Position numbers and translations under genes: made by a program
NCBI RefSeq assembly: GCF_000732625.1
Contig: NZ_JPJI01000023.1
Location: 248,001 to 312,000, forward strand
Length of the DNA: 64,000 nucleotides
Reading direction: 5' to 3'
Source: Nonlabens ulvanivorans
GTDB taxonomy: Bacteria > Bacteroidota > Bacteroidia > Flavobacteriales > Flavobacteriaceae
The notes under the pieces: model-generated
What the model saw: only the letters and a program-made list of their open reading frames with translations
Database searches by the model: none
Told to the model about the DNA's origin: nothing
In this document: positions 31,539 to 40,835 of the stretch, piece by piece
How positions within the stretch are numbered: position 1 is the stretch's first letter
Layout of the letters: each line of letters opens with the position of its first letter

Positions 31539-31727
31539 GCCGCGAAGATAGTTTTTTGAAGAAATTGAGTGGCATTATTTCAAATAAGTCTACGTTTTGA
31601 GATGTAAAAAGATGCAATCTATTTTCAAATGAGAATTTATTATTAAATCCTTGTTCAATTGAGATTAAAACAAGGAATTGTCAATCAAATTGCCAATATG
31701 CTAAATTTTAGAAGTTTGTGTAGGTTA

Positions 31728-31760
31728 TTGATGCCTGTTTCAAATAAATACTTACATTTA
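31728..31760 (+). promoter_or_regulatory. Candidate promoter of the arginine leader/operon
   Basis: TTG (31728-31730), 22 nt, then TACATTTA (31753-31760), one mismatch to TAnnTTTG. The leader-peptide ATG follows 4 nt later, the same geometry as at several other genes in the window. Confidence 0.5.
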
Positions 31761-31764
31761 CCGC

Positions 31765-31833
31765 ATGAATTTATCTAGAAATAAAAATATATCCTTACCG
31801 GTGCGCTTTACGTTGCGACGCCGCTGTGCTTAA
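31765..31833 (+). CDS. Arginine-rich leader peptide (candidate attenuator)
   Basis: A 22-codon frame from ATG 31765 to TAA 31831-31833. It begins MNLSRNKNIS and ends TLRRRCA. Five of 22 residues are Arg, three in a row (CGA CGC CGC at 31816-31824); CGA and CGC look less used than CGT and AGA in the surrounding genes. It starts 4 nt after a -7-like box and precedes a complete arginine biosynthesis operon. This is the classic architecture of a transcription-attenuation leader peptide in which ribosome stalling on Arg codons senses charged tRNA-Arg. A U-rich tract follows at 31855-31869, but only a weak hairpin is visible before it. Confidence 0.6.
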   Translation: MNLSRNKNISLPVRFTLRRRCA

Positions 31834-31872
31834 TCTCACTTAGCATTTAGATATAATTTTTATTTTTTTACA

Positions 31873-31968
31873 TTGAATTCACTTCCATTATTATTTACTA
31901 CTTTTTTAACTGCTCCTTCTAGGAATGGTTTTTCTGTGCGTCCTACTTTACGACGCCCACGCCCGTAA
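31873..31968 (+). CDS. Second arginine-rich leader-like ORF
   Basis: A frame of 31 codons opening at TTG 31873 (no ATG available) and ending RPTLRRPRP before TAA 31966-31968. Its C-terminal half, SRNGFSVRPTLRRPRP, aligns with the first leader peptide (shared SRN, VRxTLRR), and the underlying DNA matches at 17 of 22 positions (31801-31822 against 31935-31956 by my hand alignment). A short stem CTTTACG (31947-31953) / CGTAAGG (31964-31970) is followed by a T-rich tract, so this ORF may overlap the attenuator hairpin. Real translation is uncertain. Confidence 0.35.
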   Translation: MNSLPLLFTTFLTAPSRNGFSVRPTLRRPRP

Positions 31969-31985
31969 GGGTTCTTTCTTTTTGG
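31947..31985 (+). terminator. Possible attenuator hairpin in the arg leader
   Basis: CTTTACG pairs with CGTAAGG (7 bp with one G-U) around an 11-nt loop, followed by GTTCTTTCTTTTT. It is weak as a terminator but correctly placed to respond to translation of the second leader ORF. Confidence 0.3.
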
Positions 31986-32056
31986 GAATTTAGGTGCGTC
32001 CAGTTCTTCTTTTCACAACTACACTTTACACTTTTTAATTTATAAAATCAATCTCA

Positions 32057-32680
32057 ATGGAAATTGTTATTGCTCATAAATCGCATTCAAAATATGCGCA
32101 AATCATTTGTGATACCATAGCCGACGCTGCCAAAGTGCGCGGTACAGGAATCGCAAAACGTACACCAGAATATGTCACTACCAAAATGGAAAATGGCAAC
32201 GCGGTTATCGCACTGGATAACGGAAAATTTGCAGGTTTTTGTTACATAGAGAAATGGGGACACGGCAAGTTTGTCGCAAACTCAGGCCTTATTGTACATC
32301 CAGATTATAGAAATCTAGGACTGGCCAAACAAATTAAAGAACGCATCTTTTTACTATCTAAAGAAAAGTTTCCTGATGCAAAGATATTTAGCATCACCAC
32401 TGGACTAGCTGTTATGAAAATGAATAGCGACCTAGGTTATAAGCCTGTTACTTTTTCTGAATTAACAGACGACCAGCAATTCTGGAACGGTTGCCAGACC
32501 TGTAAGAACTACGACATCTTACAACGTACAGAACAAAAAATGTGTTTGTGTACAGGAATGATCTATGACCCTTCTAAGAAAACAACCGAAGAAAAGAAAC
32601 CTATTAAAAAGTCTGTTTTCAACAGATTAAAACAAATTAAGCAAACGCTTATTCTCAAAAAAGATCAAAATGAACAATAA
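32057..32680 (+). CDS. GNAT acyltransferase, candidate N-acylglutamate synthase
   Basis: A 207-aa GNAT-fold acyltransferase. The acyl-CoA pyrophosphate loop is in HPDYRNLGLAKQIKERIF (R-x-x-G-x-A type, about residue 90). After the fold comes an unusual Cys-rich segment, FWNGCQTCKNYDILQ then KMCLCTGMIYDP (four Cys), which may bind zinc, and a basic tail. It is the first gene of the arginine operon and overlaps argG by 11 nt. The operon has every other step of the pathway but no argA or argJ, so this protein is the natural candidate for acetyl- or succinyl-transfer to glutamate. Confidence 0.75.
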   Translation: MEIVIAHKSHSKYAQIICDTIADAAKVRGTGIAKRTPEYVTTKMENGNAVIALDNGKFAGFCYIEKWGHGKFVANSGLIVHPDYRNLGLAKQIKERIFLLSKEKFPDAKIFSITTGLAVMKMNSDLGYKPVTFSELTDDQQFWNGCQTCKNYDILQRTEQKMCLCTGMIYDPSKKTTEEKKPIKKSVFNRLKQIKQTLILKKDQNEQ

Positions 32681-33866
32681 TAAAAAATTAGTAATAGCCT
32701 ATAGTGGCGGACTGGATACCTCATATTGTGCCGTATATCTTTCACAAGATCTAGGTTATGAAGTGCATGCCGTGTGTGTGAATACAGGTGGTTTTACTCA
32801 AGAAGACCTTAAAACTATAGAATCTAACGCTTATAAAATGGGCGTGAGCACTTTTAAAGCAATAGATGCTGTCAGCACTTTTTATGATAAAGTCGTTAAG
32901 TATTTGATTTATGGAAACGTGTTGAAGAACAATACATATCCGCTATCGGTAAGTGCAGAGCGTATTGTGCAAGCCATTGAGATTATAGAATATGCAAAAA
33001 CCATAGACGCACAATTTATCGCTCATGGAAGTACTGGCGCCGGAAATGATCAAGTACGTTTTGATATGATTTTTCAAACTCTAGCACCACATATAGAAAT
33101 TATTACACCTATAAGAGATGGTAAACTATCACGTAAACAAGAGATAGATTATCTCATAGAAAACGGAATAGCCATGTCTTGGGAAAAGTCTCAATATTCT
33201 GTCAATAAAGGACTGTGGGGAACTAGTGTCGGTGGAGCAGAAACTCTGACCTCGCTCAAAGCATTACCAGAAGAAGCCTATCCATCACAACTTCAAAAAG
33301 AAGGAAAGGAACAAGTGAAACTCACCTTTAAAAAAGGAGAGTTAATCGCTGTAAATGGGAAAGAGCAATCTTCAGAACTGGCTATACAACAACTCAATGA
33401 TCTTGCTTCTTCATATGCTATAGGTAGAGATATCCATGTAGGCGATACCATAGTAGGTATGAAAGGTAGAGTAGGTTTTGAAGCCGCAGCAGCGTTGATT
33501 ACTATCAAAGCACATCATTTATTAGAAAAGCATACACTTACTAAATGGCAGTTACAGCACAAAGATTATCTGTGTAGTTTTTACGGTATGCACCTGCATG
33601 AAGGTCAGTACCTCGATCCTGTAATGCGCGACATGGAGGCTTTCTTAGAAAGTAGTCAGGTTAAAGTTACTGGAGATGTTTATGTCACTTTACAACCTTA
33701 TCACTTTACTCTGGACGGTATAGAATCGGCAAACGATTTAATGAATGCAAAATTCGGTACTTATGGAGAAGAGAATAAAGCATGGACAGCAAGTGAGGCC
33801 AAAGGTTTTATCAAGATCATAGGTAACAGCAATAAGATTTATAACCAGATACATCAAGAATCATGA
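32670..33866 (+). CDS. argG: Argininosuccinate synthase
   Basis: A 398-aa enzyme joining citrulline and aspartate with ATP, the penultimate step of arginine synthesis. The ATP pyrophosphatase P-loop is LVIAYSGGLDTSYCAVYL at the N-terminus; HGSTGAGNDQVRFD (about residue 114) and GLWGTSVGG are the other typical segments. It overlaps the GNAT gene by 11 nt and argC by 4 nt, so the genes are translationally coupled. Confidence 0.96.
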   Translation: MNNNKKLVIAYSGGLDTSYCAVYLSQDLGYEVHAVCVNTGGFTQEDLKTIESNAYKMGVSTFKAIDAVSTFYDKVVKYLIYGNVLKNNTYPLSVSAERIVQAIEIIEYAKTIDAQFIAHGSTGAGNDQVRFDMIFQTLAPHIEIITPIRDGKLSRKQEIDYLIENGIAMSWEKSQYSVNKGLWGTSVGGAETLTSLKALPEEAYPSQLQKEGKEQVKLTFKKGELIAVNGKEQSSELAIQQLNDLASSYAIGRDIHVGDTIVGMKGRVGFEAAAALITIKAHHLLEKHTLTKWQLQHKDYLCSFYGMHLHEGQYLDPVMRDMEAFLESSQVKVTGDVYVTLQPYHFTLDGIESANDLMNAKFGTYGEENKAWTASEAKGFIKIIGNSNKIYNQIHQES

Positions 33867-34840
33867 TTAAAGCAGGAATAATAGGTGGTGCAGGTTACAC
33901 AGCAGGAGAATTAATAAGACTTTTAATTCACCATGATGAGGTAGCCATAGATTTTATATACTCGACTTCAAACGCTGGCAATGCGGTGAGTGATGTGCAT
34001 CAAGACCTTTTAGGTACTACAGATTTGGTGTTTACAAGCCAGTTAAATAACAATGTAGATGTTTTGTTTTTATGTCTAGGCCATGGCAATTCAAAATCTT
34101 TTTTAGAGAAGCATCAATTTTCAACGAGTACAAAAATTATCGATTTAAGTAATGATTTTAGATTGATGGAATATGCACGCTTTCGCGAAAGCGAGTTCAC
34201 ATATGGACTGTGCGAGTATCAAAAAGAAGAGATTAAAAAAGCTACTCATGTGGCAAATCCAGGATGTTTTGCAACAGCCATACAACTTGCTATTTTACCA
34301 CTAGCTGTACAGCAATTGATAAAAGAAGATGTGCATGTAAATGCGGTTACTGGTGCAACTGGTGCAGGTACAAGTCTGTCACCTACAACACATTTCACAT
34401 GGAGAGATAATAATTTCTCACACTATAAAGCTTTTACGCATCAGCATCTAGGAGAAATAAATCAGACTTTAAAACAGTCGCAACAAGATTTTAATTCTAA
34501 TGTGTTATTTGTGCCTAATCGTGGTGATTTCAGTAGAGGGATTTTTGCGACAGCTTATACTAAAATAGACCTATCACTAGAAGAAATAAAAGACTTTTAT
34601 AAGGACTACTATAAAGACTCACCATTTGTATTTGTGTCTGATAAAGAAGTGCATTTAAAGCAAGTAGTTAATACTAATAAGTGTCTTATTCATCTACATA
34701 AGCATAATAACATTTTATTGATAACGAGTGTCATCGATAACTTATTAAAAGGTGCGTCTGGACAGGCAGTACAAAATATGAACTTGATGTATGATTTTCC
34801 AGAGGATCAAGGTTTACAACTTAAAGCCAACTTTTTTTAA
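33863..34840 (+). CDS. argC: N-acetyl(succinyl)-gamma-glutamyl-phosphate reductase
   Basis: A 325-aa NADPH-dependent reductase of N-acyl-glutamyl phosphate to the semialdehyde. The Rossmann start GIIGGAGYTAGELIRLL and the catalytic Cys in VANPGCFATAIQLAILPL (about residue 136) are diagnostic, and HQHLGEI carries the second catalytic His. The palindrome at 34179-34192 lies inside and encodes RFRES in the variable loop before TYGLCEYQ. Start overlaps the argG stop (ATGA). Confidence 0.95.
   Translation: MIKAGIIGGAGYTAGELIRLLIHHDEVAIDFIYSTSNAGNAVSDVHQDLLGTTDLVFTSQLNNNVDVLFLCLGHGNSKSFLEKHQFSTSTKIIDLSNDFRLMEYARFRESEFTYGLCEYQKEEIKKATHVANPGCFATAIQLAILPLAVQQLIKEDVHVNAVTGATGAGTSLSPTTHFTWRDNNFSHYKAFTHQHLGEINQTLKQSQQDFNSNVLFVPNRGDFSRGIFATAYTKIDLSLEEIKDFYKDYYKDSPFVFVSDKEVHLKQVVNTNKCLIHLHKHNNILLITSVIDNLLKGASGQAVQNMNLMYDFPEDQGLQLKANFF
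34179..34192. repeat. Iterated palindrome GCTTTCGCGAAAGC, copy 7
   Basis: Exact copy inside argC, read as RFRES; the only copy in the window in this reading phase. Confidence 0.95.
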
Positions 34841-34850
34841 ACTCAAAATC

Positions 34851-35651
34851 ATGAAAATAGCCATAATAGGAACTGGTAATTTAGGCCGCTCCATCGCAAA
34901 GGGATTGATTCATAATAATGCAATAACGACATTGTATTTAACTAAAAGGAATCTAGAAGATCTAGAGTTTTTTCAAGATTATTCTGGCGTGTTTTTGACT
35001 GCAGATAATGAAGAAGCAATCAAGAAATCTGACATTATCATATTTGCGGTGCAGCCAGCACATTTTACTGATATTCTAGAAACAACTAAAGATTTATTTA
35101 ATGAGAACCATGTGTTGATATCGACGATAACTGGTTTTACGGTAGATAAAATAGAGGCAATTGTAGGTTCACATCAGCATGTGATTAGGGCAATGCCTAA
35201 TACAGCGATCGCGGTTGGTAAATCGATGACCTGTCTGTGTCATAATGAAAAAGGGACTCTTAGAATAAAAGTAGCTCAGGCTATTTTTAATCGTTTGGGA
35301 ACCACCCTAGTTATTCCAGAAACACAAATGCAAGCTGCAACCGTGGTATGTGCTAGTGGAATAGCTTTCTGGATGCGATTAATAAGAGCGAGTACACAAG
35401 CCGCTATTCAGTTAGGTTTTGACGCTAGCGAGGCACAATTATTAGCAATGCATACTGCCGAAGGTGCTGCAAGTTTATTAATAACAACAGGCAACCACCC
35501 AGAACAAGAGATCGATAAAGTTACCACGCCCAAAGGTTGCACCATAGAAGGTTTAAACGAGATGGAACATAAAGGATTGAGCAGTTCGCTTATTCAAGGA
35601 ATGATAGCTTCTTTTCAAAAAATTAATACGATTAAAGAAAAACAGATATGA
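34851..35651 (+). CDS. proC: Pyrroline-5-carboxylate reductase family protein
   Basis: A 266-aa NAD(P)H-dependent reductase. I use the ATG at 34851, which gives the proper Rossmann start MKIAIIGTGNLGRSIAKGLI; the longer frame from 34791 would overlap argC. The MPNTAIAVGKSMTCLC segment and the C-terminal EQEIDKVTTPKGCTIEGLNEME match the P5CR signature. ProC normally makes proline from pyrroline-5-carboxylate; within an arginine operon it may link glutamate semialdehyde or ornithine to proline. Confidence 0.9.
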   Translation: MKIAIIGTGNLGRSIAKGLIHNNAITTLYLTKRNLEDLEFFQDYSGVFLTADNEEAIKKSDIIIFAVQPAHFTDILETTKDLFNENHVLISTITGFTVDKIEAIVGSHQHVIRAMPNTAIAVGKSMTCLCHNEKGTLRIKVAQAIFNRLGTTLVIPETQMQAATVVCASGIAFWMRLIRASTQAAIQLGFDASEAQLLAMHTAEGAASLLITTGNHPEQEIDKVTTPKGCTIEGLNEMEHKGLSSSLIQGMIASFQKINTIKEKQI

Positions 35652-36772
35652 GTTTATTTGATGTTTATCCACTTTTTGATGTGACGCCCGTGCGTGCACA
35701 AGATGTTTATGTTTATGATCATAATGATGTCGAGTATCTAGATTTATATGGTGGTCATGCTGTTATTTCTATAGGTCATTCTCATCCAGAATACGTAAAT
35801 AATATAAGTGAGCAAGTTTCTAAGATAGGCTTTTACAGTAATGCGGTTCAAAACCCATTGCAAGAAGCGCTTGCTCATCAATTAGTTGACTTTTCTGGTT
35901 GTAAAGATTACCAACTATTCATGTGCAATTCTGGTGCAGAGGCAAATGAAAACGCATTAAAACTAGCCTCTTTTTATAATGGAAAGCATAAAGTAATCGC
36001 TTTTAAAAATGGTTTTCATGGTCGTACATCTGCAGCGGTGGCGGCTACAGATAATGCAAAAATTATCGCACCATTAAATGCACAACAAGAAGTAGAAATT
36101 ATTGAATTAGGAGATCTGGAAGCTGTAGAAAAAGCACTAGATAAGAATAACGTTTGTGCGGTGATTGTAGAATGTATTCAAGGAGTAGGTGGTCTAGATG
36201 AAGATACTACTGTATTTTATCAAGGTTTGCAAGCTTTATGTCGTCAGTACAATACTTCTTTTATTGCAGATGAGGTGCAATCTGGTTTTGGTAGAACTGG
36301 TGATTTTTTTGCATTTCAAAAACATGGACTAGAACCAGATATTATTTCAATGGCAAAAGGTATGGGAAATGGGTTTCCTGTAGGTGGTATTTTGATCCAT
36401 CCACAAATTAAGGCTTCTTATGGATTGCTGGGTACTACTTTTGGCGGTAATCATCTAGCATGCACCGCAGTTTCTACGGTGCTAGATGTTATAGAAAAGG
36501 AGCAATTAATGGATAATGCAAAAGCAGTATCTGCTCACTTTTTAAAAAGAGCTCAAGAATTACCACAGGTTAAAAATGTAAAAGGACGCGGATTAATGTT
36601 AGGACTAGAATTTGATTTTCCTATTACGACAATAAGAAAGAACATTCTGTTTAATCATCACATTTTTACTGGTAGTGCAAAGAATCCTAACGTGATAAGA
36701 ATTTTGCCGCCATTAACGATTAAAGAATCTCATATCGATTTATTCTTTGACGCTTTAAAAGCCGAATTATGA
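35648..36772 (+). CDS. argD: Acetyl(succinyl)ornithine aminotransferase
   Basis: A 374-aa class III PLP aminotransferase making N-acylornithine from the N-acyl semialdehyde. Landmarks: CNSGAEANENALKLA, FHGRTSAAVAAT, FIADEVQSGFGRTG (PLP-binding Asp) and the Schiff-base Lys in ISMAKGMGNGFPVGG. It overlaps proC by 4 nt and argF' by 4 nt within the operon. Confidence 0.95.
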   Translation: MSLFDVYPLFDVTPVRAQDVYVYDHNDVEYLDLYGGHAVISIGHSHPEYVNNISEQVSKIGFYSNAVQNPLQEALAHQLVDFSGCKDYQLFMCNSGAEANENALKLASFYNGKHKVIAFKNGFHGRTSAAVAATDNAKIIAPLNAQQEVEIIELGDLEAVEKALDKNNVCAVIVECIQGVGGLDEDTTVFYQGLQALCRQYNTSFIADEVQSGFGRTGDFFAFQKHGLEPDIISMAKGMGNGFPVGGILIHPQIKASYGLLGTTFGGNHLACTAVSTVLDVIEKEQLMDNAKAVSAHFLKRAQELPQVKNVKGRGLMLGLEFDFPITTIRKNILFNHHIFTGSAKNPNVIRILPPLTIKESHIDLFFDALKAEL

Positions 36773-37707
36773 AAAAATACACTGAACTTAAAGATATAAA
36801 AGACCTCTCTCAAATAGTTGAAGAGGCAATTGCACTCAAGCAAGCACCATTTGAATTTAAACATCTAGGTAAGAACAAAACTCTAGTAATGTTGTTTTTT
36901 AATGCGAGTTTAAGAACACGATTAAGCACAGAAAAAGCAGCAAAGAATCTAGGGTTAGAAGTGCAAATATTAAATGTGAATGATTCTTGGAAACTAGAAT
37001 TTGATGATGGAACGGTGATGAATGCAGACACTTCTGAACATGTAAAAGAAGCTGCTCAGGTCATCTCTCAATATGCAGATGTGATTGCGGTAAGAGCTTT
37101 TCCTTCTTTAGTTGATAAAGAAAAGGATGCTCAAGAAATAGTCCTAAATAGTTTTATAAAATATGCGTCTGTACCTATTGTAAATATGGAAAGTGCAACA
37201 GCTCATCCTTTACAAGCTCTTGCAGATGTTATTACTCTGGAAGAATTGAAAACCAAGAAAAAGCCCAAAGTCGTTATTTCTTGGGCGCCACATCCCAAAG
37301 CCTTGCCGCAAGCAGTGGCAAACTCATTTATTGAAGTGATGCAAATGGCAAACGTAGATTTTACGATTACGCATCCGCAGGGATATGAATTATCTGATGC
37401 GATTGTAAAAGATACACCGGTGATTTATGATCAGGAAAAAGCTTTGAAAGAAGCCGACTTTGTCTATGTGAAAAACTGGAGCAGTTATACTGATTATGGT
37501 AAGGTTTTAAGTCAAGACGCTAGCTGGATGATGACTCAGGAAAAATTAGGTAATGCAAAATTTATGCACTGTCTTCCTGTAAGAAGAAATGTTGTGGTAG
37601 AAGATGCTGTGCTAGTTAGTGAGAACTCTATCGTCATCCACCAGGCTAATAATAGAACCTATGCAGCTCAAGTAGTTTTAAAAAATATTTTAGAAAACAT
37701 AGAATAA
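36769..37707 (+). CDS. argF': N-acyl-L-ornithine carbamoyltransferase (AOTC/SOTC type)
   Basis: A 312-aa transcarbamylase. The carbamoyl-phosphate motif is FFNASLRTRLST (about residue 43) rather than the STRTR form of ordinary ornithine carbamoyltransferase, and the C-terminal HCLPVRRNVVV fits the N-acylornithine class. Overall it matches the Bacteroides succinylornithine enzyme as I recall it (HPLQALADVITLEE, WAPHPKALPQAVANSF). At the specificity position, Glu92 in the Xanthomonas acetylornithine enzyme and Pro90 in the Bacteroides succinylornithine enzyme, this protein has Ser89 in ADTSEH. Substrate is therefore ambiguous. One-base overlap (TAATG) with argB. Confidence 0.9.
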   Translation: MKKYTELKDIKDLSQIVEEAIALKQAPFEFKHLGKNKTLVMLFFNASLRTRLSTEKAAKNLGLEVQILNVNDSWKLEFDDGTVMNADTSEHVKEAAQVISQYADVIAVRAFPSLVDKEKDAQEIVLNSFIKYASVPIVNMESATAHPLQALADVITLEELKTKKKPKVVISWAPHPKALPQAVANSFIEVMQMANVDFTITHPQGYELSDAIVKDTPVIYDQEKALKEADFVYVKNWSSYTDYGKVLSQDASWMMTQEKLGNAKFMHCLPVRRNVVVEDAVLVSENSIVIHQANNRTYAAQVVLKNILENIE

Positions 37708-38483
37708 TGGAACAGCTTAAAGTTATAAAAATAGGTGGACACATTATCAATGACCAGCAAGCACTAGATGATTTTTTAACCACATTTACTGCGATAAAAG
37801 GGCTGAAAGTTCTTATTCATGGAGGTGGAAAAGTAGCTACAGAATTAGCTCAAAAAATGAATCTTGAAGTAACAATGATCGATGGCCGTCGCATCACTGA
37901 TTCAGAAACACTAGACATTGCTACTATGGTTTATGCTGGTAAAGTAAATAAAACCATTGTAGCAAAGTTACAAGCTAAGAAGTGTAATGCTATAGGATTT
38001 ACAGGAGCTGATGGGAATACTATTTTGTCTAAAAAACGAGATGTAGAAGAGGTAGATTTTGGTTATGTTGGAGATGTTGTAAAGGTAGATACAGAGATTG
38101 TTGAGGTGTTGCTTTCGCGAAAGCGTACTCCAGTATTTTGCGCCATAACGCACGACGGACATGGTCAATTATTAAATACAAATGCAGATACTCTTGCGGC
38201 TGAACTCGCTATAGCACTAGCCAAAAACTATGAAACAGAACTGTATTACTGTTTTGAGAAAAAAGGAGTTTTGCAGAATATCACAGATGAAGATTCTGTA
38301 ATTAAGAATATCAATTTAGAAAATTATCAAGATTTAAAATCTCAAGGGATTATTGCCGACGGAATGCTGCCTAAAATGCAAAATTGTTTTCATGCTATTC
38401 AAAATGGCGTGCAAAAAGTATGTGTAGGATTGCCAGATATGCTTCAAAATTCAAACAGTTTATTCACAACAATATCGAACTAA
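37707..38483 (+). CDS. argB: N-acetyl(succinyl)glutamate kinase
   Basis: A 258-aa amino-acid kinase phosphorylating N-acylglutamate. The start VIKIGGHIIND and LIHGGGKVATELAQKM are the phosphate and glutamate loops; GFTGADGNTILSKKRD and the C-terminal GIIADGMLPKMQNCFHAI complete the family pattern. The feedback-arginine N-terminal helix of arginine-inhibited NAGKs is absent, suggesting no direct feedback at this step. The palindrome 38111-38124 encodes LSRKR between VEVL and TPVFCAITHDG. Confidence 0.94.
   Translation: MEQLKVIKIGGHIINDQQALDDFLTTFTAIKGLKVLIHGGGKVATELAQKMNLEVTMIDGRRITDSETLDIATMVYAGKVNKTIVAKLQAKKCNAIGFTGADGNTILSKKRDVEEVDFGYVGDVVKVDTEIVEVLLSRKRTPVFCAITHDGHGQLLNTNADTLAAELAIALAKNYETELYYCFEKKGVLQNITDEDSVIKNINLENYQDLKSQGIIADGMLPKMQNCFHAIQNGVQKVCVGLPDMLQNSNSLFTTISN
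38111..38124. repeat. Iterated palindrome GCTTTCGCGAAAGC, copy 8
   Basis: Exact copy inside argB, read as LSRKR. Confidence 0.95.
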
Positions 38484-39547
38484 TGAAACATCAAGATTTA
38501 AAAAAAGAGGCTCTAGAATTGTTGAAAAAAATGATTGAAACACAATCGTTTTCTAGTGAAGAAGAAGGAACTGCTCTACTGATAGAATCATGGTTTAATA
38601 ATCATGAAATTCCATTTAAAAGAGACCATCATAATATATGGGCGACTAATAAATATTTTGAAAAAGGGAAACCTACGTTATTATTAAACTCACATCACGA
38701 TACGGTACAACCTAATAAAGCCTACACAAAAGATCCATTTAGAGCAATAGTTGAAGATGGTAAGTTATACGGTCTAGGCAGTAATGATGCTGGTGGTTGT
38801 CTGGTTTCCTTAATAGCTACGTTTACTCATTTTTATAAGCAAAAAGATCTAAAATATAACCTTGTCATAGTCGCTAGCGCCGAAGAGGAAAGTAGCGGCC
38901 CAAATGGTTTAAATAGTATGCTAGATATCATACCACATATAGATGTTGCTATTGTAGGCGAGCCTACTTTAATGAATCTAGCAGTCGCTGAAAAAGGATT
39001 GGTCGTTTTTGATGCTAAAATAAAAGGGACGCCAGGACACGCGGCTCACCCCAATGATAATAATTCGATTTACAATTCTATAGAAGTTTTAAAATGGTTT
39101 CAAGATTTTAAGTTTGACAAATCATCTGAGGCATTAGGTGATGTAAAAATGACGGTAACGCAAATTAAAGCTGGCGTGCAACATAATGCTGTGCCGTCAG
39201 AGGTAGAACTGGTCATTGATGTAAGAGTCAATGATAAATACAGCAATCAAGAGATCGCAGAAATGCTGAAAGAACAGTCGCCTTGTGATGAAATTATTGC
39301 ACGAGGTTTGCGATTAAATTCTTCTTCTATTCCTGTAGAACATGAGTTGGTGCAAGCAGGAATAGCGATGGGAAGAACCACTTATGGATCACCTACTTTA
39401 TCAGATCAGGCGTGTTTAAGTTGTCCTTCTTTAAAATTAGGTCCTGGCGATAGCACACGATCTCACAGCGCTGATGAGTTTATTTATCTAGAAGAGATTG
39501 AAGAAGGCATCGATATATACATCAATTTATTAACGAGTATTTTTTAA
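38483..39547 (+). CDS. argE: N-acetyl(succinyl)-citrulline/ornithine deacylase (M20 family)
   Basis: A 354-aa M20 zinc amidohydrolase. The ATG at 38483 shares one base with the argB stop (TAATG); the longer frame from 38384 would run back into argB and is rejected. Metal motifs are LLLNSHHDTVQP (His, Asp), GLGSNDAGGCLVS (bridging Asp), ASAEEESSGPNG (catalytic Glu pair) and IVGEPT. In the N-acylornithine transcarbamylase pathway the physiological substrate should be N-acylcitrulline rather than N-acetylornithine. Confidence 0.92.
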   Translation: MKHQDLKKEALELLKKMIETQSFSSEEEGTALLIESWFNNHEIPFKRDHHNIWATNKYFEKGKPTLLLNSHHDTVQPNKAYTKDPFRAIVEDGKLYGLGSNDAGGCLVSLIATFTHFYKQKDLKYNLVIVASAEEESSGPNGLNSMLDIIPHIDVAIVGEPTLMNLAVAEKGLVVFDAKIKGTPGHAAHPNDNNSIYNSIEVLKWFQDFKFDKSSEALGDVKMTVTQIKAGVQHNAVPSEVELVIDVRVNDKYSNQEIAEMLKEQSPCDEIIARGLRLNSSSIPVEHELVQAGIAMGRTTYGSPTLSDQACLSCPSLKLGPGDSTRSHSADEFIYLEEIEEGIDIYINLLTSIF

Positions 39548-39557
39548 AGATAGAATT

Positions 39558-40835
39558 ATGAAACTTTGGGATAAAGGAATTGCGATAGATAAAAAAATGG
39601 AACAGTTTACAGTAGGTAATGATCGCGAGATTGATCTACATATTGCTCCTTATGATGTAATAGCATCTCGTGCACATGCTAGAATGCTAGCAAAGATTAA
39701 TATCATTTCTAGCGAAGAGTTAAAACAATTAGAATCTGGACTGGATGCGATTGCATTACAAATAGAAGAAGGCACTTTTATTATTGATGATCAGTTTGAA
39801 GATGTACATTCTAAAATTGAGCACGAACTGACTTTACAACTGGGCGAAGTAGGGAAGAAGATTCACTCGGCTAGATCTAGAAATGATCAAGTTCTAGTGG
39901 CGTTACAATTGTATTACAAAGAGGCACTGGGACAAACGAGAACTAGTATAAAGACATTGTTTGATACATTATTAGATTTAGCCGAGTTACATAAGGATCA
40001 ATTGTTACCAGGTTACACTCATTTACAGGTGGCGATGCCATCATCATTTGGTTTGTGGTTCTCGTCTTATGCAGAGTTGCTGGTGGATGATGTATATGTT
40101 CTAGACGCTACGATGCGTATTGTAGATCAAAATCCGTTAGGAAGTGCTGCAGGTTATGGAAGTTCTTTTCCTATCGATAGAGAATTCACTACTCAAGAAA
40201 TGGGTTTTGCAGCGTTAAAGTATAATGTAGTTGCTGCACAACTCACTAGAGGTAAAAATGAACGAAGTATAGCTGCTTCTTTATCAAACGTGGCAAATAC
40301 ACTTTCTAGATTTGCGATGGACATCTGTTTGTATATGAGTCAGAATTTTGGGTTTATAAGTTTTCCAGATGAGTTAACGACAGGTAGTAGCATCATGCCG
40401 CATAAAAAGAATCCAGATGTCTTTGAATTGATACGTGGTAAGTGCAATAAAATACAAGCTTTACAAACTGAAATGTTATTGATAACAAACAATTTACCTA
40501 GTGGTTATCACAGAGATTTTCAATTGCTCAAAGAGAATGTGATCGCTTCTTTTGTAGAATTAAATGACATTCTAGAAATCTTTAATTACTCTATAAAGAA
40601 AATTATAGTAAAGGAAATTGACCTTAGTGATGAGAAATATCAATATCTATTTACTGTAGATAATATCAGTAATCTAGTGGTAGATGGAGCATCTTTCAGA
40701 GAAGCGTATAAAACGATAGGTGAGCAGGTTGAGAATGGAACGTATGTTCCAGATACATCAAAGCACCATACTCATATAGGTAGTATTCATAACTTATCAT
40801 TGAGTCATATTAGAGAAAAGTTCCCTATAGAGTGA
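39558..40835 (+). CDS. argH: Argininosuccinate lyase
   Basis: A 425-aa fumarase/aspartase-superfamily enzyme releasing arginine and fumarate, the last step of the pathway. The family signature GSSIMPHKKNPDVFELIRG (about residue 277), HSARSRNDQV (about residue 112) and GYTHLQVAMP carry the conserved catalytic residues. It begins 10 nt after argE and is the last gene of the operon. No strong terminator is visible directly after it. Confidence 0.96.
   Translation: MKLWDKGIAIDKKMEQFTVGNDREIDLHIAPYDVIASRAHARMLAKINIISSEELKQLESGLDAIALQIEEGTFIIDDQFEDVHSKIEHELTLQLGEVGKKIHSARSRNDQVLVALQLYYKEALGQTRTSIKTLFDTLLDLAELHKDQLLPGYTHLQVAMPSSFGLWFSSYAELLVDDVYVLDATMRIVDQNPLGSAAGYGSSFPIDREFTTQEMGFAALKYNVVAAQLTRGKNERSIAASLSNVANTLSRFAMDICLYMSQNFGFISFPDELTTGSSIMPHKKNPDVFELIRGKCNKIQALQTEMLLITNNLPSGYHRDFQLLKENVIASFVELNDILEIFNYSIKKIIVKEIDLSDEKYQYLFTVDNISNLVVDGASFREAYKTIGEQVENGTYVPDTSKHHTHIGSIHNLSLSHIREKFPIE

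Follow-up and report, generated by a model that had tools for sequence, protein, structure and literature searches.

Arginine biosynthesis is a textbook case of control by the ArgR repressor. How, then, is arginine sensed in bacteria that appear to lack this protein? The question is raised by an arginine operon of Nonlabens ulvanivorans (Flavobacteriaceae), which lies in a stretch of 64,000 nucleotides hereafter called the window; positions are counted from its first letter. The original prediction, made from the letters of the window, held that a short ORF ahead of the operon encodes an arginine-rich leader peptide and that the operon responds to the charging of tRNA-Arg in place of a repressor. 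Such leaders offer a testable answer to the question of arginine sensing in these bacteria. The reading that I develop here is that control is probably exerted in this way, by two arginine-sensing leader peptides acting in series.

The operon and its two leader reading frames

Direct reading of the window bears out the predicted ORF exactly as it was described: 22 codons, five of which specify Arg (in order AGA, CGC, CGA, CGC, CGC), the last three being consecutive (leader 1, or ORF1; Table 1). Its ATG follows a promoter-like box by 4 nt, again as described. The distance to the operon, predicted to be about 220 nt, is 223 nt from the leader 1 stop to the first gene, and the gene set as named by NCBIfam agrees with the claim that the operon is complete, with nine genes. 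The first of these encodes a GNAT acetyltransferase presumed to act as N-acylglutamate synthase. The carbamoyltransferase (36769-37707) scores 285.6 bits with the N-acetylornithine carbamoyltransferase model (cut-off 288), as against at most 153 bits with the ornithine carbamoyltransferase models, and this better fit indicates that the pathway probably proceeds via acylated ornithine. A proC gene (pyrroline-5-carboxylate reductase, 34851-35651, above the NCBIfam cut-off) is inserted between argC and argD.

A second Arg-rich ORF, overlooked in the original prediction, lies between ORF1 and the operon and has a conserved, structured end (leader 2). In the window CCA replaces one of its Arg codons, while in the close relatives L111 and L112 its end encodes RRRRP. 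The nearest named relatives are Nonlabens species, and there the acetyltransferase is identical over 207 residues.

Table 1. Features of the arginine operon and its upstream region (positions in the window).
Feature	Position	Strand	Basis
Promoter-like box TACATTTA (TAnnTTT[G/A])	31753-31760	+	4 nt ahead of leader 1 ATG; read in window
Leader ORF 1, MNLSRNKNISLPVRFTLRRRCA then stop	31765-31833	+	ATG start, TAA stop; frame Arg enrichment in 34 tandem loci; ORF1-like leader in 76/80 named loci
T1 long-range stem, 5' arm (inside leader 1)	31777-31793	+	Pairs with 31850-31867 in fold; duplex energy matched by 1/200 shuffles (window)
Leader 1 Arg codon run CGA CGC CGC	31816-31824	+	Read in window
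Hairpin across leader 1 stop codon (GTGCT..AGCAT)	31826-31846	+	Part of minimum-energy fold; similar GCTAA..TTAGC hairpins in folds of several relatives (uncounted)
T1 3' arm (31850-31867) and U-rich tract TTTTTATTTTTTT (31857-31869), terminator-like	31850-31869	+	U-rich block in 33/34 tandem loci; unreported by simple terminator scan
Leader ORF 2, MNSLPLLFTTFLTAPSRNGFSVRPTLRRPRP then stop	31873-31968	+	TTG start; in 72/80 named loci; frame test on 83/98 loci
Leader 2 Arg codon cluster CGA CGC CCA CGC CCG	31951-31965	+	Read in window; relatives compared
Hairpin 1, CGCCC-GTAA-GGGTT; Arg codon in 5' arm, stop codon in loop	31960-31973	+	Model R1; GTAA/GTGA loop in 51/75 loci
Hairpin 2, six-pair stem, bulged TA, GG-TGCGT-CC; family core AGGTGNG[T/C]CC	31985-32007	+	Arm pairing; arg leader the sole place found at R2 sensitivity
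GNAT acetyltransferase, first operon gene, presumed N-acylglutamate synthase	32057-32680	+	NCBIfam: no match
argG, argC, proC, argD, acetylornithine-type carbamoyltransferase, argB, argE-like, argH	32670-40835	+	NCBIfam; several are best matches below model cut-off

ArgR in Flavobacteriaceae

The ArgR family (PF01316) has no match in any of 149 Flavobacteriaceae genomes, that of the window included, while 9 of 14 control genomes, Bacteroides among them, were positive. One family genome beyond the 149, G311, comes just short of the cut-off of 27 with a borderline score of 26.9 bits for an open frame of 312 codons, and both leaders are present in its upstream region (L192). A large family is thus found without ArgR in 149 sampled genomes and with arginine leader peptides instead, two in a row in one large group.

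Conservation of the leaders

The acetyltransferase gene occurs in 98 of the 149 family genomes. A first comparison used 90 of these loci, and the other eight were added for the leader criterion and for the frame, codon, spacer and competing-fold counts given below. By that criterion, which was fixed after the sequences had been seen, a leader is an ORF of 15-50 codons, at most 400 nt upstream and ending at least 50 nt from the gene, whose last 14 residues include RR(x)R or four Arg. One or both leaders so defined precede 85 of the 98 operons, and 13 upstream regions fail the criterion; the reverse strand gives 8, and dinucleotide shuffles, repeated 20 times, average 1.95 and never exceed 6. 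Among named relatives (the best 80 by acetyltransferase similarity, which include Polaribacter, Olleya, Lacinutrix, Winogradskyella, Tenacibaculum and Psychroserpens), looser criteria applied with no shuffle control recover leader 2 from 72 loci and an ORF1-like leader from 76, with the two together in 69; the core of hairpin 2 is present in 78. A strict ORF1 leader is found in 34 of the 90 loci first compared. Conservation of the Arg codon run in relatives, which the original prediction had chosen as its own test, is therefore borne out for leader 1 itself as well as for the leaders taken together. Across the compared loci leader 2 is nonetheless the more widely conserved unit of the two. A chance ORF can be discarded as an explanation in view of the shuffles, the conservation and the frame tests presented below.

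The acetyltransferase tree places all 34 strict tandem loci, along with six others, in one well supported group of 40. The strict label was retained for 34 of 41 candidates: L049, L055, L070, L078 and L079 were dropped though tandem-looking, and L054 and L072 as false matches. Since tandem-looking loci were left out of the label, the five label changes seen on the tree do not constitute a firm history.

Reading frame and codon choice

In leader 2, Arg reaches 0.436 per codon in the ORF's own frame, against 0.042 and 0.018 in the alternative frames (83 loci, with an anchor that fixes one of the nine codons; the other 15 of the 98 loci could not be anchored). The codon just ahead of the anchor is Arg in 76 of the 83 loci and its third base varies (CGT 53, CGC 20). 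The tails of ORF1 behave similarly, with 0.438 in frame versus 0.037 and 0.055 in the other frames (34 loci). Codon choice is equally marked. CGC and CGT account for 309 of the 326 leader 2 Arg codons (CGC 178, CGT 131, CGA 8, AGG 5, AGA 3, CGG 1), and the 134 Arg codons of the ORF1 tails comprise 105 CGC, 16 CGT, 7 CGA, 4 AGA and 2 AGG. The commonest Arg codon of the window is AGA, at 41% over 49 long ORFs, with CGC at 13%, so that the leaders choose CGN codons against the commonest Arg codon. Taken together, the frame and codon counts indicate, at the level of sequence, that the leaders preserve these positions as Arg codons from the CGN box. This box is mainly read by tRNA-Arg(ACG).

These codon counts bear on an alternative in which the leader 2 peptide, rather than its codons, is the sensor. 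TnaC arrests the ribosome in response to tryptophan; in the same manner, a nascent peptide ending in Arg-Pro could stall the ribosome at the stop codon in response to free arginine. Arg-Pro-stop does end 64 of the 75 leader 2 ORFs that have the hairpin 2 core, as such a mechanism would have it. However, the frame reads on in the other 11 (as RPLGV, RLVRV or RTSVRV), Pro-stop overlaps hairpin 1, which can by itself account for its presence, and the avoidance of AGA (3 of 326 Arg codons) argues for the sensing of tRNA. Arrest by the peptide is for these reasons improbable, and codon-specific sensing of charged tRNA-Arg is the reading pursued below.

Leader 1 and the start of the transcript

Folding of ORF1 together with the downstream U-tract (31765-31890) gives a z of -4.77, with none of 200 shuffles as good, in contrast to ORF1 folded alone, which shows no excess over shuffles in the window (z -0.73). 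This fold contains the long-range stem T1. A T4+A0-2T4+ block is found 3' of ORF1 in 33 of the 34 tandem loci, as against 1 of 34 in the stretch upstream of ORF1, and this U-rich block can pair with early ORF1 codons. Over the 34 tandem loci the T1 duplex has a median z of -1.78 and is at or under 10 of 200 shuffles in 14, that is, it appears only moderately better than shuffled sequence. RNAalifold found no consensus structure in a MAFFT alignment of the 34 leader 1 regions, and a terminator scan of 31600-32100 found no terminator in the window. The minimum-energy structure of 31765-31890 also joins the start of leader 1 (31766-31773) to that of leader 2 (31874-31881), a pairing that would hide the leader 2 start.

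Do the two leaders belong to the same transcript? A TAnnTTT[GA] box lies at most 16 nt from the ORF1 start in 30 of the 34 tandem loci. No TAnnTTTG box is found in the 75 nt that follow the ORF1 stop in any of the 34, and sigma-70-like sites downstream of this stop show no excess over shuffles in the window. The lack of a TAnnTTTG box between the leaders in all 34 loci indicates that leaders 1 and 2 probably share a single transcript. In 19 of 64 loci without a strict leader 1, TAnnTTTG followed by an ATG precedes leader 2, sixteen times at exactly 7 nt (mononucleotide-shuffle mean 0.84, maximum 4). This spacing between box and ATG suggests that transcripts begin at, or just before, the start codon of the leader.

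The structured end of leader 2

Two hairpins mark the end of leader 2. In its family form, hairpin 1 reads CGCCC-GTAA-GGGTG, with the last Arg codon of leader 2 in its 5' arm. Hairpin 2 is a six-pair stem with a bulged A, with or without T, followed by GG-TGNGT-CC; its core, AGGTGNG[TC]CC, is present in 75 of the 90 loci. Because the length of the bulge varies, a first alignment of 75 elements misplaced an arm of hairpin 2, and the model of the element, R1, was built from 33 rows that agreed in bulge type and in hairpin 1 sequence and formed no fewer than 5 of the 6 arm pairs. Five pairs of hairpin 2 are changed on both sides in these rows, a number reached in none of 500 shuffles but biased, since the rows were chosen partly for good pairing. 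A fairer test is provided by dealing the arms out among all 75 loci, which were chosen by the core alone: the arms form 6 of 6 pairs in 62 of the 75 loci, whereas 1000 such deals average 20 and never exceed 31, relatedness of the loci not being allowed for. Hairpin 1 is nearly invariant within the 33 rows; in other loci both sides of its stem are altered with pairing retained, as in L050 (CGCAC..GTGCG). A natural variant is offered by the upstream region L113, also from Nonlabens ulvanivorans, in which hairpin 1 is altered (CGCGTAAGGGGGGG) and hairpin 2 is intact.

The element defined by R1 is tied to the arginine operon. Of the 90 fetched loci, R1 matches 86 where expected, a figure that includes the 33 rows used to build it and two matches with E > 0.4; there are two chance matches besides. 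Searched against whole genomes, it gives one match in the window's own genome and one match each in 90 of the 149 family genomes, 33 of which are sources of the model; 9 of the 98 genomes with the acetyltransferase gene have no R1 match. According to coordinates compared by eye, 89 of the 90 copies lie directly upstream of the acetyltransferase gene. The ninetieth, in G084 (L102), precedes argG, argC and an argD-like gene, named by likeness to the proteins of the window. The first gene there (L102 1154-1738) encodes a different protein of 194 residues, and the acetyltransferase query has no match in this genome. In another genome, G010, which is from the genus of the window, the acetyltransferase and the R1 element are both missing, as if operon and element were absent together. 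In wider searches, R1 matches 12 of 196 genomes of the order, all in Flavobacteriaceae, and 4 of 295 genomes of the class, three in Flavobacteriaceae and one, a weak match, outside the family. It has no match in the seventeen listed genomes of genus g127, and all five of these that were tested have the acetyltransferase.

Hairpin 2 alone, as model R2, is found in 50 of the 149 genomes, and all 50 matches fall inside the arg leader; R2 misses 40 of the 90 R1 genomes, the window's own included, and its filters were strict, so that a weaker copy elsewhere could escape it. The own genome contains six other AGGTGNGTCC sites. No hairpin-1-like stretch precedes any of them, and none forms all six pairs, L099 and L101 reaching five; open frames of at least 150 codons cover five of these six sites. 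Neither these sites nor the R2 search of the 149 genomes support a more general use of hairpin 2 ahead of other operons.

The constancy of its core suggests that hairpin 2 has a partner. This observation can be carried further, to an alternative in which a protein or RNA dedicated to hairpin 2 binds there, the leader peptides serving for tuning only. The conservation of the core beside a stem that varies and still pairs fits this proposal, as does the confinement of hairpin 2 to the arg leader at R2 sensitivity. On the other hand, a candidate for the partner is missing and the Arg codons are conserved independently of the hairpin, which makes it rather doubtful that the leaders are accessory. 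I prefer to regard hairpin 2 as a conserved RNA hairpin with a putative partner that may act together with arginine-sensing leaders.

Possible termination after leader 2

In most loci hairpin 2 does not have the usual sequel of an intrinsic terminator. At least five T in the 8 nt that follow it are found in 8 of 75 loci, and the U-tract is missing in the other 67. The window itself is T-rich at this place (TCTTTTCA), and for this reason a weak terminator is possible there. An alternative for most loci is that leader 2 acts through Rho-dependent or factor-assisted termination, or through pausing of RNA polymerase, a ribosome that has finished leader 2 exposing the hairpins and an untranslated stretch on which the factor would act. 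The missing U-tract is what would be expected, and so are the U-rich spacer between hairpins 1 and 2 (56% T in 77 loci) and the composition of the stretch after hairpin 2 (6.6% G, 15% C). This G-poor stretch is ordinary, however: 23 other upstream regions of the window are similar, with 9.7% G and 15.7% C, and a special Rho site in the spacer after hairpin 2 was rejected on this account. Moreover, Rho needs no fixed hairpin core, which counts against its being the factor. Such an outcome is conceivable without being the expected one, and it is compatible with the sensing step of the model set out below, sensing of tRNA-Arg charging by the leader ribosome.

The original prediction also proposed a search for mutually exclusive hairpins. 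Of 82 loci folded at minimum energy, 22, the window among them, favour a structure that would compete with the two hairpins by engaging the hairpin 2 core with sequence upstream of it. In the same 82 loci there is no covariation of this structure with the Arg codon. Pairing of the Arg codon with the hairpin 2 core was discarded for want of this covariation.

A proposed model with two sensors in series

The conserved, in-frame Arg run and the lack of an ArgR match in all 149 genomes, with G311 as the borderline case beyond them, support the interpretation given in the original prediction, leader-peptide control by tRNA-Arg charging that dispenses with ArgR. Sequence comparison establishes the two ORFs with their frames and codon choice, the two hairpins of leader 2 and the association of these features with the arginine operon. 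I infer that the ribosome stalls at the leader Arg codons, that stalling favours expression of the operon, and that transcription rather than translation is the output. The transcript would start at 31765 or just before and encode leader 1 first. When Arg-tRNA is plentiful, the ribosome would complete leader 1 and leave, and the RNA would fold back onto the U-rich tract at 31857-31869 to form T1, the putative terminator, favouring termination before leader 2. When charged CGN tRNA-Arg is scarce, a ribosome held at CGA CGC CGC would block this fold and RNA polymerase would continue. Leader 2 would then repeat the test. A ribosome held on its CGN codons, chiefly CGC, would block hairpin 1, whose 5' arm holds the last Arg codon, while a ribosome completing leader 2 would allow hairpin 1 to form; hairpin 2, through its conserved core, may then help to decide whether the operon is expressed. 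The locus would thus represent a natural case of two attenuators in series.

A bolder version can be put forward tentatively. It holds that the two serial sensors operate without ArgR, that leader 2 is a new RNA device, composed of a stop-codon hairpin and a fixed-core hairpin (AGGUGNGUCC), which decides expression without an intrinsic terminator, and that arginine leaders are an older, class-wide alternative to ArgR in Bacteroidia.

Relation to known leaders

In having a short ORF with a run of codons for the pathway's amino acid before the cognate operon, and a hairpin overlapping the control codons, the arg leaders resemble the trp, his and leu attenuators. They differ from them in the amino acid, in the arrangement of two leaders in series, in the start of the leader ORFs close to the promoter box and, for leader 2, in the presence of a hairpin of fixed core mostly without a U-tract. 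The likeness to ArgR control lies in the pathway regulated; the difference, in the repressor itself. Bacteroid-trp is a trp leader. No Rfam family, T-box included, matches the window at the gathering threshold, eight loci at E up to 5 or eighteen loci at gathering; with no covariance model match, a known RNA family (Bacteroid-trp, T-box or other Rfam family) was set aside. Bacteroid-trp RNA (RF01692), described as a structured RNA of the same phylum (PMC2864571), differs from the present element accordingly, and in being concerned with tryptophan instead of arginine.

A closer precedent for the signal is rbfL of Staphylococcus aureus, reported as a leader peptide with Arg codons through which arginine is sensed by way of tRNA charging (PMC13009471). 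As described there, the effect of rbfL is on translation, the ribosome site that follows being covered; rbfL also differs from the arg leaders in its AGA/AGG codons, its length of eight residues and its target, a biofilm regulator (PMC13009471). That an arginine-sensing leader peptide acts on translation in this case (PMC13009471) is a precedent for translational control here, whereby a ribosome stalled on leader 2, or having finished it, would alter access to the start site of the acetyltransferase gene. Yet leader 2 stops 88 nt ahead of this start codon and leader 1 further still. At that distance a stalled leader ribosome would not cover the start; furthermore, the element precedes an operon of nine genes. 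Control of translation is quite unlikely on these grounds, and the preferred output remains transcription.

In the same family, a study of Flavobacterium psychrophilum reports strong indications that leader peptides attenuate amino acid operons (PMC9723704). The conserved 5' elements named in section 19 of that paper are those of pheA and hisG, arginine being unnamed in this section. Among the matches listed in a search of openly licensed papers, none describes a leader peptide for a bacterial arginine biosynthesis operon; the scope of this statement is the papers themselves, and the supplement of PMC9723704 may list arginine.

Arginine leaders and ArgR in the class

ArgR matches 16 of 295 genomes of the class, 12 of them over the cut-off, with G311 counted among the 16. 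Seven of these genomes have argR immediately ahead of the acetyltransferase gene of the same operon, and the 400 nt before argR contain an ORF meeting the leader criterion in none of the seven. Since argR itself takes the place upstream of the acetyltransferase gene in these genomes, a test of the co-occurrence of ArgR and leaders would be confounded.

Outside Flavobacteriaceae, 90 genomes have the acetyltransferase gene, 61 of which entered the leader count and 29 of which were left out. An Arg-run leader ORF precedes 27 of these 61 operons; the reverse strand has 11, and shuffles average 2.5 and never exceed 6. Arginine leaders may on this evidence be class-wide in Bacteroidia, a weaker claim than that made for the family because the reverse-strand count is high. 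The leader ORFs of these other families (L199-L258) are of different sequence, with endings such as SRRRPYMPRA, RRRLFIPRV and RFRRPILPRA.
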